From the NCBI GenBank assembly GCA_021286645.1, contig JAJTBZ010000069.1:1-64000 (forward strand): a DNA stretch of 64,000 bases, written 5' to 3'. This document shows, one piece after another, positions 52,643 to 64,000 of the stretch; position 1 is the stretch's first letter; each line of letters opens with the position of its first letter. Origin of the DNA: Ignavibacteria bacterium (lineage in GTDB: Bacteria; Bacteroidota; Ignavibacteria; Ignavibacteriales; Ignavibacteriaceae). Under the pieces are notes generated by a model. The model was not told the DNA's origin, made no database searches, and was given only the letters and a program-made list of their open reading frames with translations. The position numbers and the translations under genes are program-made.

Positions 52643-53902
52643 ATGATGGTTGACCGATGTGATACTGTTTTAAGCCCGGCCGAAGTTCGTTCTATTGCGG
52701 TTAACTCGCAAAGATTTGCATCCGTTTCCTCCAGGAATGTAATTGCAGAAAATGTACTTGAGATAAGCAATCATATAGGATATGTACAGATAGATACAAT
52801 CTCGGTAGTCCGAAGGGCGCACCATCATGTGCTGTGGTCAAGAAACCATTTGTATACCGAAGCGGTACTAGATGAAGTTTTTATGAAAAATCATGAGTTA
52901 TTTGAATACTGGACGCATGCGATGTCGTATGTACCCATGCAAGACTATCGTTTCTTTCTTCCCCGTATGAAAAACTTTCAATCAGCCCGGCATCCGTGGT
53001 TTAAGGCATTAGAGAGTCGCGCGAAACCGATTATTGATGAAGTATTTAATCGAATTAAAGATGAAGGGCCCCTCGGTACCCGCGATTTTGAAGATACCAG
53101 GAATAAGAAAAGGGAAGGTTGGTGGGATTGGAAACCTGCCAAGGATGCTCTGGAGGTACTTTTTTGGCGTGGTGATCTGATGGTTTCGGGTAGAGATAAA
53201 TTTCAGAAAATTTACGATATCACCGAAAGGGTAGTTCCGGCACACATTAATACCACTTTCCCGGGCCCCATTGAAACAGCAAAGTTTTTGGTACAAAAGG
53301 CTTTGAAAGCACATGGCATATTATCTCTGAAGGACTTTCAGGCATTCATGCAGCCTGATGCCGGTCGGGATTCCGATATGCGAGCCTGCGGGCGTGAATA
53401 TATTCAGCAGGCAGTTAACGAATTGCGAGATGAAAATACTATTGTAAAAGCTCAGATTAGCGGCTCAGATGAGGTGTATTATGTTCAACAAGAAACATTA
53501 AATACTCTTGTTGATCAGCGCTTAATGAAAGGCAAAACCCGCGTCCTTTCACCCTTTGATAATTTGGTTATAAATCGTGACCGGCTGGAAAGGCTTTTGG
53601 GTTTTCGCTATATGATTGAGTGTTATACTCCGGCTCCTAAACGAAAATACGGATATTTTTCACTCCCTATTTTATATCAGAATACATTTATTGGCCGGGC
53701 AGATATGAAAGCAGATAAAATGGCAAATCAACTGGAAATTTTAAACTGCCATTTTGAGGATGGCTGCAAACTTTCTGCTACTATGGCTGAATCAATTATT
53801 AAAGAGTTTTCGGCATTTGCCAGATTTAACAATTGTAATAAAGTTCGGCTGAAAAAGAGTAACAGAACGAATTGGATGCCTGAAGTGATTACACTCCGGT
53901 AA
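52643..53902 (+). CDS. ycaQ: YcaQ-family winged-helix DNA glycosylase
   Basis: The 419-residue protein belongs to the HTH_42/YcaQ family, whose characterised members unhook DNA interstrand crosslinks. The catalytic QxD motif is present as IGYVQIDTISVVRRAHHHVL (Gln and Asp near residue 48-50). FEYWTHAMSYVPMQDYRFF, the GTRDFEDTR and WWDWKPAKDALEVLFWRGDL segments and RVLSPFDNLVINRDRLERLLGF also match the family. Three tandem winged helices are expected. The start ATG 52643 gives a normal N-terminus. Its last 14 bases overlap the end of the convergent TPR-kinase gene. Confidence 0.93.
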   Translation: MMVDRCDTVLSPAEVRSIAVNSQRFASVSSRNVIAENVLEISNHIGYVQIDTISVVRRAHHHVLWSRNHLYTEAVLDEVFMKNHELFEYWTHAMSYVPMQDYRFFLPRMKNFQSARHPWFKALESRAKPIIDEVFNRIKDEGPLGTRDFEDTRNKKREGWWDWKPAKDALEVLFWRGDLMVSGRDKFQKIYDITERVVPAHINTTFPGPIETAKFLVQKALKAHGILSLKDFQAFMQPDAGRDSDMRACGREYIQQAVNELRDENTIVKAQISGSDEVYYVQQETLNTLVDQRLMKGKTRVLSPFDNLVINRDRLERLLGFRYMIECYTPAPKRKYGYFSLPILYQNTFIGRADMKADKMANQLEILNCHFEDGCKLSATMAESIIKEFSAFARFNNCNKVRLKKSNRTNWMPEVITLR

Positions 53903-55916
53903 CGGGCTGCGGAAGAATAAGAGTAAATACCGAACCATGAGTCAGGGTGCTTTCTACAGCAATTGACCCGTTATTTGCCTCTGCCAGGACTTTGCAAATA
54001 TATAAACCAAGGCCTGCCCCTTCTTCATTATCGGTACCTTTAGTAGGCGTAATATCCAAACTAAAGATATGTTTTAACACCGCGGGTTCTATTCCAACTC
54101 CATTATCAGCGATAGAAATGATAAATTTACCGGCATTTTCCGAAATCACAATGCTAATCTCGCCACCTGCATGCGAATACTTAATAGCATTTGAAATCAG
54201 GTTTCTGAAAATAGAATCAACCGAATTATTACTCCCGTAAGCAACCGCGTGTGCCGGGTAAGTTCGCCTGAATAAAATCCTTTTATCTTCGGCAACCTCT
54301 TCGAAATAAGCGATGGCACGATTCATAAGCATTACTAAATCGATATTTGTTGCGGTAATATCAGTTTTACGCCGTTGCAGTTTTGCCCAAAGCAATAATT
54401 GGTCAAGCAACGAAAGCATGTGTTTGCTGCGAATACGTATATTCCGGATCTTTGCCATTATCTGGTCGCGCGGTAATAGATCCACGTTTTCTGCAAGAGC
54501 GACAGTATCATCCTGGAGCATGGAAAACGGCGTTTTTAGGTCGCCGGCTATAATTGAAAAAAGCCGGTCATGTTGCTGATTTACAACAGTCAATTGGTGA
54601 TGCAATGCAATAAGCTGCCTATTCTGTTCAGTAATTGCCGCATGATTTTGTTCAAGTTCATTCTGGATTTTTCTGCGGTATAAACTGCGGTTAATAACCA
54701 CGCCAATAAACGCCAGTCCCAAAACAGCAAAAATACCCGCGATAATAATCAGGTTTTTCTGTAGCGAAGCTGCTTTTTCAAGGTGTTCCAAATTTTTTCT
54801 ATGTTGTTCAGAATTGAATTTGTCTAATATTTCCGAAGCCTGTGCGGCTGAATTTTCATTATAGATAGAATCGGTCAGCTCTTTGTAATTTTTTTGATAC
54901 TCCAATGCAGTTTTGTAGTCTTTCAGTTCTTCGTACACGTTGCCAAGTATATTATATCCAAAAGCAACACCTCGAAGGTCGCCAATTTCTTTTCGAATTT
55001 TTATTGACTCCAGAGTGTTATCAATTGCCGATTGATATTTTTTTTCTTTCCTGTATATTAAACCAAGGTAAGAATAGATACTGGCCACGCCCTTCGTGCT
55101 GTGCATTTCTCTTCTCATCGCGAGAGCAGCTTTAAGACTATCGATTGCCTGAGGTACCTTATTATTCATCTGCAGCGCAACAGCTACTGTCTCCAGGACA
55201 TCGGAGATTCCGGGCCGGTCCCCAATTTGGTAGCGAAGTTCAAGTGCTTTCGTTATATAAGTAAGAGCTTCAGGCAAACTATCGTTCAGCGTAAGAAATC
55301 CTTTATGTTCATTGCTGAGAGCAATGCCTTCCTGGTACCCGATCTCCTGACTAAGCGCGAAAGCTTTTGCAATATATCCTTTTGCCTTTTCTTTATCCTT
55401 AAGAATATAATGTGTTATACCAATATAATTGTGTGCGTCGCAAATAATTTCATTATTGTGAAGCCCGGTACCTAATGCAACGGCATCTGCGAGCAGGTTA
55501 AGCGCGCTCTGGTATTTTGTTAAAATTATTTCAATACGGGCTCGCAATATATCTATCCGTGCTTTTCGGTATTTATCGGTGGAGTTCACCATTAAATTAC
55601 TCGCGGAGGTAATATATTCGTACGCGGTTGAGAAATCTCTCAGCAGGTGATAGTAATAGGCAGTGTAATATAAAAGATCAATTTCGGAATAAGTATCATT
55701 ACATTTGCGCGCGAGAGAGAGCCCTAACTCGGCCTCTTTTATGCCTTCCCAGGGAGAAGAATGCAGATACCGCGAAGCATGAGTAACTATCCCCGTTAAC
55801 CGTTCTTTATCGGTAGTTGAAGAATAATTTGTCGAATCGATTTTTTCAGATTCAGCAAATAAATAAATTTGACATATAAGCAGAAGGAGTAATACTCGTA
55901 CAGTTGATCTACTCAT
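53889..55916 (-). CDS. TPR sensor kinase-like protein lacking the phospho-acceptor His
   Basis: The 675-residue protein has a signal peptide (VLLLLLICQIYLFA-E). A tract of TPR repeats (about 30-360, for example ASIYSYLGLIYRKEKKYQSAID) lies in the periplasm, followed by one membrane helix (LIIIAGIFAVLGLAFIGVVI) and a kinase-like cytoplasmic region. The H-box reads SIIAGDLKTPFSML: Gly458 (codon GGC, plus coordinates 54543-54545) stands where the tandem paralogue has His461. The ATP-binding domain keeps NLISNAIKYS, DNGVGIE and GAGLGLYICK. It is therefore probably a pseudokinase or a dimer partner of the upstream kinase, which ends one base before this gene starts. Its stop overlaps ycaQ by 14 bases. 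Confidence 0.92.
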   Translation of the reverse strand: MSRSTVRVLLLLLICQIYLFAESEKIDSTNYSSTTDKERLTGIVTHASRYLHSSPWEGIKEAELGLSLARKCNDTYSEIDLLYYTAYYYHLLRDFSTAYEYITSASNLMVNSTDKYRKARIDILRARIEIILTKYQSALNLLADAVALGTGLHNNEIICDAHNYIGITHYILKDKEKAKGYIAKAFALSQEIGYQEGIALSNEHKGFLTLNDSLPEALTYITKALELRYQIGDRPGISDVLETVAVALQMNNKVPQAIDSLKAALAMRREMHSTKGVASIYSYLGLIYRKEKKYQSAIDNTLESIKIRKEIGDLRGVAFGYNILGNVYEELKDYKTALEYQKNYKELTDSIYNENSAAQASEILDKFNSEQHRKNLEHLEKAASLQKNLIIIAGIFAVLGLAFIGVVINRSLYRRKIQNELEQNHAAITEQNRQLIALHHQLTVVNQQHDRLFSIIAGDLKTPFSMLQDDTVALAENVDLLPRDQIMAKIRNIRIRSKHMLSLLDQLLLWAKLQRRKTDITATNIDLVMLMNRAIAYFEEVAEDKRILFRRTYPAHAVAYGSNNSVDSIFRNLISNAIKYSHAGGEISIVISENAGKFIISIADNGVGIEPAVLKHIFSLDITPTKGTDNEEGAGLGLYICKVLAEANNGSIAVESTLTHGSVFTLILPQPVTGV

Positions 55917-55917
55917 A

Positions 55918-57966
55918 TCAGGCTACCTTTTCCTGCATTTGGGAAGTAAGAGGTAACAATACCGTGAACGTGGAGCCATTATTTGGTGTGCTGCTAACCA
56001 GTATCTCGCCTTTATTAAAGTCGGCCATTTCTTTACAGAGCAATAGCCCCAGACCGGTTCCGCGCTCATTTCCTGTGCCTACGGTCGAATGTGCTTCCAT
56101 AGTAAACAGAGTATTGATTACTTCCTCGTTCATCCCAACTCCGTTATCGGAAATACTAATTGCTGCCAGCTGATTTTGTTCCTTAACAGAAAGACTTATT
56201 ACCCCATTCTGAGGAGTAAATTTAATGGCATTTGTTACAAGGTTGCGGAGGATAATTTCAACAGTTTCTTTATCGGCATACAGTAAGACTTCATCGGTAG
56301 TTTCAAACTGCAAAGTTATTTTCTTAGCCAATGCAATGGCCTGGTAGAAATTGATAATTTCATGAATTTGGCGAGTAACGCTGTAAGCACGCGGGGTGAA
56401 GTTGATATTGCCGGTTTGAACTTTCGCCCACAACAACAGTTTATCCAGTAACTCCATAAGATTTTTACTAATGCCTGTTATTGATTGTGTAAACTCATGG
56501 ATCTCTTCATTGCTTAATTCATCCATTTCGCGTACAAGCAAATCTGTGTATCCGAAAATACCCGTGAATGGGCTCCGGAGGTCATGCGCGATAATTGAGA
56601 AAAGTTTGTCTTTGTGTTTGTTTAATATATTTAATTCTTCGTTAAGTGTGTTCAACTGCTCATTTTGAATCTGGATCTTTTCATTATCTGCAATAAGTTG
56701 TTCCTGAGTGGCCTTGCGATATCGGATATACCGCAGCATTATAAATATGCCGATAATGCTAATCACTATAGTGAGTAATAAACCGATGATTAGTTTATTT
56801 CGTAACTTTGAACGTTCTTCTAACCTGGTAATTTCGTGCTGTTTTGTCTCTACGCTATATTTTTCCAATGATTCATGATAAGCCCTGGTAGCCTTTTCAG
56901 AATAAATAGAATCGCTAAGAGTTTTAAAAAGCTTCTGATATTCAAGGGCATTTTTGTAATCGGCTGCTTTTTCGTAAACTCTGGCGAGGGCTTTAGCTGT
57001 TGATGACATGCCACGGATATCGCCGTTTACTTTCCGTAATTGCATTGCGAGCTTAAAATTCTCAATTGCATCCTGTAAATGGTTAAGTGTAAAGTATATG
57101 ATTCCAAAATTTGTATATATTGAAGCATCGGCCAGTTCGCTATGTAGTTTCTTCCGATACTTCAGTGCGACGTTTAAGGTATCTATGGCTTCCTGAAAAT
57201 GGGACATCTCTCGTAAATTAATCGCGGTTGTTTCCAGTGCTTCACTCAACCCGGGCAGGTCTCCCATTTCATATCGGGTTTTTATCGCGCTTTTATTCCA
57301 CTGAAAAGCCTGTGTATATTTTTTCTCTTTCATAGAGAGAATAGCTTTATGTTCGGAACTCAAAGCCAGCGATGCGGGATCCTGCGTTTCAAGAGATAGT
57401 TGATAGGCCTTCTCAATAAATGTTTGGGCTTTTTCATCATTCCGCATAATATAATTTAAGATGCCAATGTAGTTATACGCTTCAGCCAGAACTATTTTGT
57501 TATTCAGTTTTTCGCCAATTGAAACGGCTTTCAGTAACGATTGGGTGGCCTGATCGCTTTTCCCCAGAATAATTTCATTCCTACCGCGCAAATTATACAC
57601 ATTTGCAGCCTGTTCTGAAACAGCCCCCTGTTGCAATAACCCGCATGCCGCAATAATATAATTGTACGATATATAGTAGTTATGCAAAATGCAATGTGCC
57701 AGCGATAGATAATAGTCGAAGCTTATAGTCGAGGGGGTATCGTGTAACGATTTTGCGAGCATAAGGCCTTGTTCTGCTTCAGTAACTGCCGTTTGTGGCG
57801 ATCTGAGCATGATCTGAGGCATACTTAAAAGAATTTTCTGTGCCTTGTCTAGTTTCTCAACTCGGTCATCACCATCATTTCCCTGACCGGCAAATAAAGG
57901 CAGGCTGACCGTAAAACTGAAAGCCAGAATAATCAAAATGGATTTGACTTGATACATTTTGCTCAT
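55918..57966 (-). CDS. TPR-domain membrane histidine kinase
   Basis: The 682-residue kinase has a signal peptide (ILIILAFSFTVSLPLFAG), periplasmic TPR repeats (about 60-370, for example ASIYTNFGIIYFTLNHLQDA), a membrane helix (LIIGLLLTIVISIIGIFIML) and a coiled linker. HisKA has an intact H-box (SIIAHDLRSPFTGI, His461). HATPase has NLVTNAIKFT, DNGVGMN and GTGLGLLLCKE. This layout is widespread in the Bacteroidota; ligands are unknown. It is the first gene of a two-gene unit with its degenerate paralogue and is divergent from the TonB receptor at 58188 across 221 bp. No response regulator is next to it. Confidence 0.94.
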   Translation of the reverse strand: MSKMYQVKSILIILAFSFTVSLPLFAGQGNDGDDRVEKLDKAQKILLSMPQIMLRSPQTAVTEAEQGLMLAKSLHDTPSTISFDYYLSLAHCILHNYYISYNYIIAACGLLQQGAVSEQAANVYNLRGRNEIILGKSDQATQSLLKAVSIGEKLNNKIVLAEAYNYIGILNYIMRNDEKAQTFIEKAYQLSLETQDPASLALSSEHKAILSMKEKKYTQAFQWNKSAIKTRYEMGDLPGLSEALETTAINLREMSHFQEAIDTLNVALKYRKKLHSELADASIYTNFGIIYFTLNHLQDAIENFKLAMQLRKVNGDIRGMSSTAKALARVYEKAADYKNALEYQKLFKTLSDSIYSEKATRAYHESLEKYSVETKQHEITRLEERSKLRNKLIIGLLLTIVISIIGIFIMLRYIRYRKATQEQLIADNEKIQIQNEQLNTLNEELNILNKHKDKLFSIIAHDLRSPFTGIFGYTDLLVREMDELSNEEIHEFTQSITGISKNLMELLDKLLLWAKVQTGNINFTPRAYSVTRQIHEIINFYQAIALAKKITLQFETTDEVLLYADKETVEIILRNLVTNAIKFTPQNGVISLSVKEQNQLAAISISDNGVGMNEEVINTLFTMEAHSTVGTGNERGTGLGLLLCKEMADFNKGEILVSSTPNNGSTFTVLLPLTSQMQEKVA

Positions 57967-60664: not shown

Positions 60665-63600
60665 ATGCACAAATTCTGGGTACGATTCTCGGTATTGATT
60701 GCAGCTTTTGTATGGTCAACGGTAACAGTTTTTGCTGCCGGTGATACAACGGTTGTGCAAACAATGCCTCAGAGCTATTTCGCTCTTAAGAATATAAATT
60801 GCTCAACCACTATGAAAATTGATGCGGTTGATGTTGGTACCAATAGTATTACATTCAAGGATCCATACAGCGCAACAGGTGCTACCAAAACAGTATGGGC
60901 CGGATATTTCCGCGGAACCATCGATGGGGCTGCTGCGAAATTCTACTGTATAGATATTGGCCACAATTTGGCTTTTTATACAACGGCAAATCCACATACT
61001 TACGGTGATAATGGTTCTACACCGGCAACAATTACATATATACTTAATAATTATTGCCCTTATAAAGCATTACCGTATACCGGTTCTCTTTCAGCCGCAG
61101 AAGAAGCAGCAGCAGTTCAGGTTGCTGTTTGGCATTTTAGTGATGGTGTTGACGCTACTACAGTTACCAATACAACCATTAAGAACCGTGCTATTGCGAT
61201 AATAAACGATGCGGTCGCTAATTCGAACAATTTTGAAACTTTAACTGCTTTTTCGATGCTCCCGGCAACTCAAACTATAGTAGCCGGAACAAAAGGCCAG
61301 CTGTACGTAAAAGCAATTGATAATCTTGGTGCCGGATTTGCAAATCTGGCAGTCGCGATAACAACCTCCAGTGGAACATTAAGTTCTGCTTCAGTAACAA
61401 CCGGTTCAAACGGGCAGTCACCATATTTTACTCTTACCCAGGGTAGTGCTTCACAGGCAACAGTAACAGCCACAACCTCATATACAATCCCCCAGGGAAC
61501 AAAATATGAACACACTGTTTCTCCCAACAGTTATCAAAAAGTAGTTTTAGCTACTCCTACAGTTGCTAATCGCCAGGCACAGGCTGTTGTCAATTGGACT
61601 CCATTTAATGGCACCTGTACGATGACCGGATATACAACTTATACACAGGGTGGATGGGGCAGTCCGTCAAACAGCACTCCGGGTGCTCTTCGTGATGCAA
61701 AGTTCTCCTTGGTGTTTCCAAATGGTTTAACAATTGGTGGAACAAAAACTGCTACTTTTTCTTCGGCTGCAACAGTTAAGGCATATCTGCCGGCAGGCGG
61801 TACTGCGGCTGCATTTACTTCTAATTATACCGACCCTGTTAGTACCAGTGCTGGTGTATTTGGCGGGCAGCTCGTTGCATTAATGCTTAATGTGCAGTTA
61901 AACGAAGCAGGGTTCCTTGGCACTAATTCTGTAAAATTAGGCCAGTTGGTTATTACTACCGGATCATTAACCGGTAAGACCGTTTACGATTTATTGAACT
62001 ATGCAAATATTGCAATCGGTGGCGGAACAACACCTTACTCAATAGCAGATCTAAATTCTGCTTTGGATGGTGTTAATAATAACTTCGATGGCGGAAGCCA
62101 GAATTTAGGATTCCTTACATGCCCATCAACACAACCTGTTACCATTGGTGATAAGGTATGGGTGGATGCAAATAAAAACGGCATTCAGGATTCTGGTGAA
62201 TCTGGTTACGCGAGTGCTACAGTTAAATTGTATGATTGCAGCAATAATCTTATTGCAACAACAACAACTGATGCAAGTGGGAATTATTTATTTAGTAATA
62301 TCACCCCTGGTAGTTATTATATTCAGGTCGTTCTTCCTTCAGGGTATGCTTTTAGCCCGAAAAACCAGGGCAGTGATGCTTCCAAGGATAGCGATGTAGA
62401 TCCGGCAACCGGAAAATCAACATGTAATACCTTTACTGCCGGGTCAATTGATCTGAAATGGGATGCCGGTATCTATTATAATGTTGCTACTTTAGGCGAT
62501 AAAGTTTGGAACGATGCAAATCTTAATGGCGTTCAGGATGCCGGTGAGGCCGGTATTTCAGGTGTTACGGTAACCTTGTTTACCTGTGCGAATGCTCAGG
62601 TGGCAACAACTACTACCGATGCAAATGGTAATTATATATTTGCTAACCTGGCCCCGGGAAGCTATTATGTTCAGTTTACCAAACCTGCGGGTATGACTAT
62701 AACCGCGAAGCAGGTCGGTAGTGATAATACAAAAGATTCTGATGCAGATCCCTCAACCGGTAAAACAGCATGTGTTACACTTGCTGCCGGTGACAACAAT
62801 ACTACTGTTGACTGCGGTATGTATGCCACCCGTGCCACTATAGGTGACAGGGTTTGGAATGATCTAAACAAAAACGGAATTCAGGATGCAAACGAACCGG
62901 GACTCTCCGGTGTAACAGTAAAACTGTATGATTGTAATAATAATCTTAAGGCTACTGCTGTTACCGATACGGCAGGCTTATATTCTTTCCCTGATATAGC
63001 TCCTGGCGACTATCAGTTAGTATTCACTTTGCCGGCTAATTACTTATTTACCGCTAAAAATCAGGGTACTGATGCTACAAAAGATTCCGATGTAGATCCT
63101 GCAACCGGAAAAACTACCTGTGTTACTTTAGCTCCCGGTAAAATTGACCTAACCTGGGATGCCGGTATGTACCTTAATAAAGCTTCTATTGGCGATAAGG
63201 TATGGAAAGATGTTAATGAAAATGGTATTCAGGATAGCGGTGAACCCGGAATTTCCGGTGTTACCGTGAAGCTCTACGACTGTGCAACAAACACACTTCA
63301 GGCTACTGTTACCACAGATGCCAATGGCTTGTATACATTCTCGAATATTACTCCGGGCAGTTATTATGTCGCTTTTACATTACCAGCCGGTTATGTATTT
63401 ACTGCAAAAGCTCAGGGTAATGATGTAACTAAAGATAGCGATGTAGATCCTGCTACCGGTAAAACAACATGCTTAACAGTTGCCGGCGGCGATAATTTAA
63501 CAACTATCGATGCTGGTCTTGTTGTCAGCAAGGTTGCAATTGGTGATTTCGTCTGGAGAGATGACAATCATAATGGAATTCAGGATGCCGGCGAGCCGGG

Positions 63601-64000
63601 CATGAAAAATGTAACCGTAAAATTATTCGATTGTAATAATAATTTTATCGGTACTACTACTACCGATTCTACCGGTAAATACCTGTTCACAAATCTCGCT
63701 CCCGGTAGCTACTATGTATTGTTCGTTCAGCCGTTAGGTTATGTATTCACTACAAAAGATGCCGGCTCGGATAACACAAAAGACTCAGATGTTGATCCGG
63801 TTACCGGAAAAACTGCTTGTGTAACTCTTACTGCCGGTACTACCGATCTTACTGAAGATGCCGGTATGTATTTACCAAAAGCCAGCGTTGGCGATAAGGT
63901 TTGGAATGACCTTAACCATGATGGTACACAGGATAACCCATTGGTAGAATTGGGTATTGCAAATGTTGTTGTGAAACTGTACACATGCGATGGTGCGTTA
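60665..64000 (+). CDS. Large exported surface protein with thioester-type domain and SdrD B-like repeats (3' end outside window)
   Basis: The frame is open from ATG 60665 to the window edge (at least 1112 residues). A signal peptide (FSVLIAAFVWSTVTVFA-A) precedes a domain at about 35-190 that resembles a Cys-Gln thioester (TQxA) adhesin domain: FRGTIDG, KFYCIDIGHN with Cys95, and AAVQVAVWHFSDG with Gln152. Residues about 205-300 look like a bacterial Ig-like domain (LYVKAIDNLGAGFANLAVAI). A further beta domain (GYTTYTQGGWGSP) lies at about 320-490. Then come repeats of 116-117 residues from residue 494, each opening with GDKVWxDxNxNGxQDxxE. The mature protein is probably on the cell surface, perhaps exported by type IX secretion, but its C-terminus is not visible. 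Confidence 0.88.
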   Translation, partial: MHKFWVRFSVLIAAFVWSTVTVFAAGDTTVVQTMPQSYFALKNINCSTTMKIDAVDVGTNSITFKDPYSATGATKTVWAGYFRGTIDGAAAKFYCIDIGHNLAFYTTANPHTYGDNGSTPATITYILNNYCPYKALPYTGSLSAAEEAAAVQVAVWHFSDGVDATTVTNTTIKNRAIAIINDAVANSNNFETLTAFSMLPATQTIVAGTKGQLYVKAIDNLGAGFANLAVAITTSSGTLSSASVTTGSNGQSPYFTLTQGSASQATVTATTSYTIPQGTKYEHTVSPNSYQKVVLATPTVANRQAQAVVNWTPFNGTCTMTGYTTYTQGGWGSPSNSTPGALRDAKFSLVFPNGLTIGGTKTATFSSAATVKAYLPAGGTAAAFTSNYTDPVSTSAGVFGGQLVALMLNVQLNEAGFLGTNSVKLGQLVITTGSLTGKTVYDLLNYANIAIGGGTTPYSIADLNSALDGVNNNFDGGSQNLGFLTCPSTQPVTIGDKVWVDANKNGIQDSGESGYASATVKLYDCSNNLIATTTTDASGNYLFSNITPGSYYIQVVLPSGYAFSPKNQGSDASKDSDVDPATGKSTCNTFTAGSIDLKWDAGIYYNVATLGDKVWNDANLNGVQDAGEAGISGVTVTLFTCANAQVATTTTDANGNYIFANLAPGSYYVQFTKPAGMTITAKQVGSDNTKDSDADPSTGKTACVTLAAGDNNTTVDCGMYATRATIGDRVWNDLNKNGIQDANEPGLSGVTVKLYDCNNNLKATAVTDTAGLYSFPDIAPGDYQLVFTLPANYLFTAKNQGTDATKDSDVDPATGKTTCVTLAPGKIDLTWDAGMYLNKASIGDKVWKDVNENGIQDSGEPGISGVTVKLYDCATNTLQATVTTDANGLYTFSNITPGSYYVAFTLPAGYVFTAKAQGNDVTKDSDVDPATGKTTCLTVAGGDNLTTIDAGLVVSKVAIGDFVWRDDNHNGIQDAGEPGMKNVTVKLFDCNNNFIGTTTTDSTGKYLFTNLAPGSYYVLFVQPLGYVFTTKDAGSDNTKDSDVDPVTGKTACVTLTAGTTDLTEDAGMYLPKASVGDKVWNDLNHDGTQDNPLVELGIANVVVKLYTCDGAL
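62144..64000 (+). repeat. Tandem SdrD B-like domain repeats, 348-351 bp period
   Basis: Repeat starts are at 62144, 62492, 62840, 63188, 63539 and 63887; the last is cut by the window edge. Each encodes an opening W-x-D-x-N-x-N-G-x-Q-D calcium-binding-type loop, a central KLYDC strand, a TPGSYY or APGxY turn and a closing DSDVDPATGK-T-C segment. The units are diverged at base level, so this is an old array under protein-level constraint. Confidence 0.93.

Follow-up and report, generated by a model that had tools for sequence, protein, structure and literature searches.

The window analyzed here is a stretch of 64,000 nucleotides from a contig (C22) of 79,712 bases. Close to its end an open reading frame starts on the forward strand at position 60665. 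The gene continues past the end of the window, with the last base of its stop codon at contig position 66928, and the product has a length of 2087 amino acids. Based on the open reading frame and on profile searches, positions 60665..64000 (+) were assigned to this gene, and all features of the protein given below lie on the same strand.

The protein starts with a predicted N-terminal signal peptide for Sec export (residues 1-24, MHKFWVRFSVLIAAFVWSTVTVFA, 60665..60736, read from the sequence). This is followed by a predicted class II-type thioester domain (TED; residues ~45-300, 60797..61564), which was delimited with Pfam PF08341, an AlphaFold2 model and fold matches and which includes an Ig-like insert and a C-terminal strand with a glutamine. 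Repeats of the SdrD B type, which the first-pass annotation had noticed behind the head domain, are indeed present (PF17210): they form a stalk of residues 494-1310 (62144..64000 and on to contig position ~64594) with seven repeats of ~116 amino acids each, starting at residues 494, 610, 726, 842, 959, 1075 and 1193. Outside the window, profile searches identified a DUF11 domain (residues 1311-1399), a choice-of-anchor A/pAdhesive_15 domain (residues 1405-1645) and, with the Por_Secre_tail profile, a sorting tail of the type IX secretion system (T9SS), type A (residues 2009-2083). A propeller-like region is located at residues ~1735-1990. The stretch between TED and stalk (residues ~300-490, window ~61565-62130) has no Pfam match. 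It contains a recurring GYxTYTQGGWG motif, is common to many long homologs and is possibly an undescribed domain.

The DNA of the SdrD_B region showed no tandem array, thus the repeats are protein-level repeats. An Rfam scan upstream of the TED gene detected no known RNA element, and promoter-like sites at the gene were not more frequent than in shuffled sequences. Downstream of the TED gene, at a distance of about 5 kb, lies the gene for a 1199-amino acid protein with a T9SS tail and alternating fibronectin-like repeats (L005:12118-15717 (-)). Two TPR-histidine kinases (675 and 682 amino acids) are located adjacently in tandem at window 53889-57966 (-), apparently as the result of a duplication.

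Residues 93-184 score 46.2 bits (6.6e-12) against the Pfam TED profile PF08341, whose gathering score is 22; this is far beyond chance and confirms the proposal of the first-pass annotation that a thioester domain is encoded here. That annotation had placed the domain at 60665-61240, which falls short of its end, since the domain extends to residue ~300 (window ~61564). The NCBIfam model TQXA_dom (TIGR03934) reached 25.3 bits, below its cut-off of 30.4. No TED was recovered from the PDB sequences by phmmer with the single window domain, and a profile built from 30 sequences yielded only weak TED matches among the PDB sequences (5dcq 0.16, 4c0z 0.31); linking the domain to solved TEDs required a comparison of folds.

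In solved TEDs, also called chemical harpoons, the thioester is formed by a cysteine and a glutamine located in a C-terminal strand with the motif PhiQzetaPhiPhi; known pairs are Cys109-Gln261 in SfbI, Cys138-Gln267 in CpTIE, Cys88-Gln292 in EfmTIE86 and Cys296-Gln467 in SaTIE (PMC4450167, PMC6194298). The window TED contains Cys95 in KFYCIDIGHN (60947..60949), where the first-pass annotation had located it, and YCID at this position agrees with the cysteine motif [YFL]C-Phi-zeta. Its C-terminal motif is SYQKVVLATP, in which YQKVV fits the bond glutamine motif with Gln291 (61535..61537), 196 residues past Cys95. The residue preceding this glutamine is a lysine in about half of the homologs, departing from Phi. 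Cys-Gln spacing in the homologs is 188-205, compared to 171 in SaTIE and 204 in EfmTIE86.

To determine the conservation of these residues two sets of homologs were available. The first consists of 33 TEDs from the same genome and from relatives, gathered with the Pfam profile, and in all of them Cys95, Gln152, Trp156, Asp160 and Gln291 are identical. The agreement at Gln291 (33/33) is not built in because the match of the gathering profile in the window protein stops at residue 184, before Gln291, while the conservation of Cys95 and Gln152 in this set is partly due to the profile. The second set (n=79) was gathered with peptide patterns containing both glutamine motifs and is biased toward them; here, 14 of 292 columns are invariant, among them the columns of Cys95, Gln152 and Gln291 (79/79), and only two invariant glutamine columns are present. 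Cys95 is the only conserved cysteine column, and a disulfide role for this residue was rejected on this ground. From sequence conservation and the structural model, Cys95 and Gln291 are expected to be the thioester pair.

A structural model of the window domain was computed with AlphaFold2 using the domain and 78 homologs as input (pLDDT 94.2, pTM 0.85), and the predicted model has the TED fold. Foldseek searches with this model returned TEDs as the best four matches (9.2e-11 to 1.9e-9). In VIA-align comparisons the top match was 6fwv (BaTIE; Z 16.1, rmsd 8.8, 241 residues aligned), followed by 6fwy (EfmTIE86; Z 14.9, rmsd 7.5, 235 aligned); the class II TED 6fx6 gave Z 11.0, rmsd 9.0 and 209 aligned residues, and class I TEDs gave Z 9.9-11.9 with rmsd 3.0-3.9 over 144-161 residues. 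That the class II superpositions have such a high rmsd (7.5-9.0) is probably due to another angle between head and insert in the model.

Strand 64-70 of the model ends with Cys95 (model residue 70), and helix 119-135 contains Gln152 (model residue 127). At their C-terminal ends the class I alignments put 5a0g residue 275 opposite model residue 274 and 5a0l residue 270 opposite model residue 275. Counted back over the last 8-9 residues on the assumption of no gaps, both CpTIE Gln267 (5a0g) and SfbI Gln261 (5a0l) map to model residue 266, which is Gln291; the 5a0d alignment is off by one. Model strands 239-258 and 268-287 flank this residue, an arrangement that would fit the hairpin bearing the bond glutamine in class II TEDs. 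Between the last helix (145-164) and the glutamine at 266 the model contains strands 168-258, as expected for a class II insert. This beta-sandwich insert (residues ~196-287, 61250..61525) is Ig-like or Big_1-like and resembles the Ig domains of intimin and invasin in profile and fold matches. A comparison with a profile of the Gram-positive class II set (eight Bacillus plasmid TEDs) was not significant (probability 0.6%), thus the predicted class II assignment rests on the fold and the residue spacing.

Class II TEDs (BaTIE, EfmTIE86, SaTIE; Miller et al., 2018, PMC6194298) resemble the window TED in overall fold, in the helix motif, in the cysteine motif, in the Ig-like insert ahead of the C-terminal glutamine strand and in a Cys-Gln spacing near 190. 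In both cases a stalked surface protein carries the TED at its N-terminal tip. They differ in that the window TED has no recognizable sequence similarity to class II TEDs past the Pfam profile and carries an insert of the Big_1/intimin type. In addition, the window protein is a predicted T9SS export with a C-terminal sorting domain in place of LPXTG, and it has a stalk of SdrD_B and DUF11 domains. The class I TEDs of SfbI, Cpa and CpTIE (Walden et al., 2015, PMC4450167) share the head and the positions of the cysteine and the bond glutamine, but have only a short linker where the window TED has the sandwich insert. TIEpLS20 from the Bacillus subtilis plasmid pLS20 (PMC8092201) is likewise a class II TED with a YCID cysteine, a C-terminal glutamine, a Sec signal and a spacing of 188 (Cys68/Gln256); in contrast to the window protein it is a Gram-positive conjugation adhesin, and the profiles are not significantly similar.

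DUF11 has been described as an isopeptide "CLIPPER" domain that is found in Gram-negative fibrillar adhesins and alongside Por_secre_tail (PMC12617251). Lys1316 (kept in 32/32) and Asp1350 (31/33) are candidate isopeptide residues in DUF11 of the window protein, and since both are retained in a known isopeptide domain, a TIE-like pairing of thioester and isopeptide in one protein is possible. Asn1412, located just beyond DUF11, is nearly invariant and might be the isopeptide partner.

The C-terminus of the window protein is a T9SS sorting domain and not a sortase LPXTG anchor. Like other T9SS type A cargo (PF18962/TIGR04183), the protein carries a Por_Secre_tail that scores over the cut-off (38.5 bits, cut-off 27). 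The same genome encodes SprA (989 bits) and the T9SS sortase PorU (892.6 bits, cut-off 420), and 126 Por_Secre_tail matches were found in it, nearly all over the cut-off. By sequence, the window protein is thus a T9SS type A cargo in a genome that has a T9SS. We scanned 35 full-length proteins (the window protein and 34 homologs), and all 35 combine TED and Por_Secre_tail; choice-of-anchor A/pAdhesive_15 and DUF11 are present in 32 proteins each, Big_1 in 22 and SdrD_B in 18.

The window TED is not an isolated oddity; it belongs to a family found across most of the order Ignavibacteriales. Of the 113 genomes and 56 genera of the order, 70 and 42, respectively, encode a TED over the cut-off. 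Sampling 395 genomes from the phylum, in the delimitation used by the tool, yielded 33 with a TED, and only two of these belong to the ~355 genomes outside the order. Named relatives are Ignavibacteriaceae, Melioribacteraceae and unplaced Ignavibacteria, among them Stygiobacter electus 09-Me, which has close homologs (L074 and L087), and the relatives named in sequence records are environmental bacteria. A second, diverged TED copy (43% identity, 762 amino acids) is encoded in the same genome on contig C54 (L006:12411-14699 (-)). This protein contains TED, DUF11, choice-of-anchor A and a T9SS tail and has no SdrD_B stalk. The C54 TED belongs to another clade of the tree, which is common to other Ignavibacteriales; from the sequences, the paralogy of the two proteins is therefore old.

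A close TED relative was observed in one Anaerolineae MAG labelled Chloroflexota (JAGHDS010000266.1, L118:4129-5790 (+)) with the motifs YCIDIH, VQLAIW and KQKLVLATP. Its protein carries GEVED and a C-terminal hydrophobic tail in place of the T9SS domain, and the finding suggests inter-phylum transfer or mis-binning. Another class of the phylum yielded a TED-like protein of 228 amino acids with a PEP-CTERM tail (G206, L151:779-1462 (+)), with YCVDLF, LQAAIW and the candidate glutamine motif KQGLV; at 21.7 bits it lies just below the TED cut-off of 22, and such a protein is present in one of 98 genomes of that class.

The analysis shows to which family the domain belongs, which fold is predicted for it and that Cys95 and Gln291 are invariant, and further that the protein has a sorting tail and that SprA and PorU are encoded in the genome; surface anchoring, bond formation and covalent attachment to a target are what we infer from this. 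The window gene would accordingly encode a T9SS-exported fibrillar adhesin of an Ignavibacteriales bacterium with a class II-type TED whose Cys95-Gln291 thioester captures its target covalently, a reading to which we give a probability of roughly 0.78. The Sec signal would take the adhesin across the inner membrane, and the C-terminal tail would address it to the type IX secretion system. PorU links T9SS cargo to the surface in P. gingivalis; by analogy, removal of the tail and attachment of the adhesin to the cell surface are probably the work of this sortase. The SdrD B-like repeats would act as a stalk holding the N-terminal TED off the cell. Cys95 and Gln291 would form an internal thioester that stays buried until docking, and reaction with an amine (lysine or amino sugar) or a hydroxyl on the target would then tether the cell covalently via Gln291. 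The odds are about even that both ends of the protein are covalently fixed, with PorU transpeptidation joining the C-terminus to the outer surface and the thioester joining the N-terminus to the target.

The residue pair of the first-pass annotation has to be weighed against this. It proposed a thioester between Cys95 and Gln152 in AAVQVAVWHF (61118..61120, at the position given there), and it is true that both residues are invariant and that TQXA domains are named after the motif to which Gln152 belongs (VQxAVW, corresponding to TQxxPhiW). In solved TEDs, however, the glutamine of this motif is located on a central helix and hydrogen-bonds the backbone of the cysteine, and the thioester forms without it (PMC4450167, PMC6194298). 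Gln152 likewise lies within a helix of the model, and a B. subtilis plasmid TED family has an invariant cysteine and C-terminal glutamine without the TQxA glutamine. Since the bond glutamine of solved TEDs is found in the C-terminal strand, the Cys95-Gln152 pair was rejected and is highly improbable; Gln152 is predicted to have a structural role. The annotation had also hesitated because the motif reads VQVA and not TQxA. This is no objection, because the bond glutamine is the one in the C-terminal strand and not that of the helix motif. The earlier interpretation is thus partly supported: it identified the domain correctly and named the wrong residue for the bond.

Two further explanations concern the function of the head. 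The TED fold could serve as a structural head without a reactive thioester, binding non-covalently or stabilizing the stalk at its tip. Such a role would suit organisms that are not known host colonizers, and the bond in this lineage is a prediction from sequence and model; yet both Cys95 and Gln291 stay invariant in homologs with only 35-50% identity to the window domain, and a disulfide offers no explanation for the single conserved cysteine, which makes an inert head improbable. A serious rival, though still an unlikely one, is a variant of the preferred reading that differs in the target only: the thioester forms and reacts with the cell's own surface layer or with sister proteins, giving a covalent mesh or biofilm matrix and not attachment to foreign surfaces. 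Three observations argue for it: in part of the order a genome carries several diverged paralogs, 32 of the 35 proteins also contain the choice-of-anchor A/ice-binding-like adhesive domain, and many relatives originate, by their record titles, from groundwater, sediment or mat metagenomes. Where the target of a TED is known, it is a host protein or a recipient cell, while the relatives named in records are environmental bacteria.

TEDs have been described as occurring "exclusively in Gram-positive bacteria" (Walden et al., PMC4450167), Monzon et al. assigned them to Firmicutes and Actinobacteria, and a pLS20 survey gave a Firmicutes share of 99.6%. A stalked surface protein with a TED in a Gram-negative bacterium of the FCB group lies outside this published range, as the first-pass annotation had supposed. 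In the open-licence literature we found no paper reporting a TED in Ignavibacteria, in Bacteroidota or together with a T9SS tail. Awareness of Ignavibacteriales TEDs at the level of databases is likely because Pfam's own model already recognizes the domain.

Compared to the published Gram-positive TEDs, a fibrillar TED adhesin with T9SS in place of sortase as its delivery route is new. If true, the two-ended tether would be the diderm counterpart of the sortase-anchored TIE proteins, in free-living environmental bacteria and not in host pathogens. Sortase and T9SS anchoring would be interchangeable backends of one TED head, and the Ignavibacteriales TEDs offer many diverse domains for probing target specificity. 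Conserved TEDs on the T9SS cargo of a diderm order would mean that covalent adhesion extends beyond Gram-positives and beyond host-associated bacteria.
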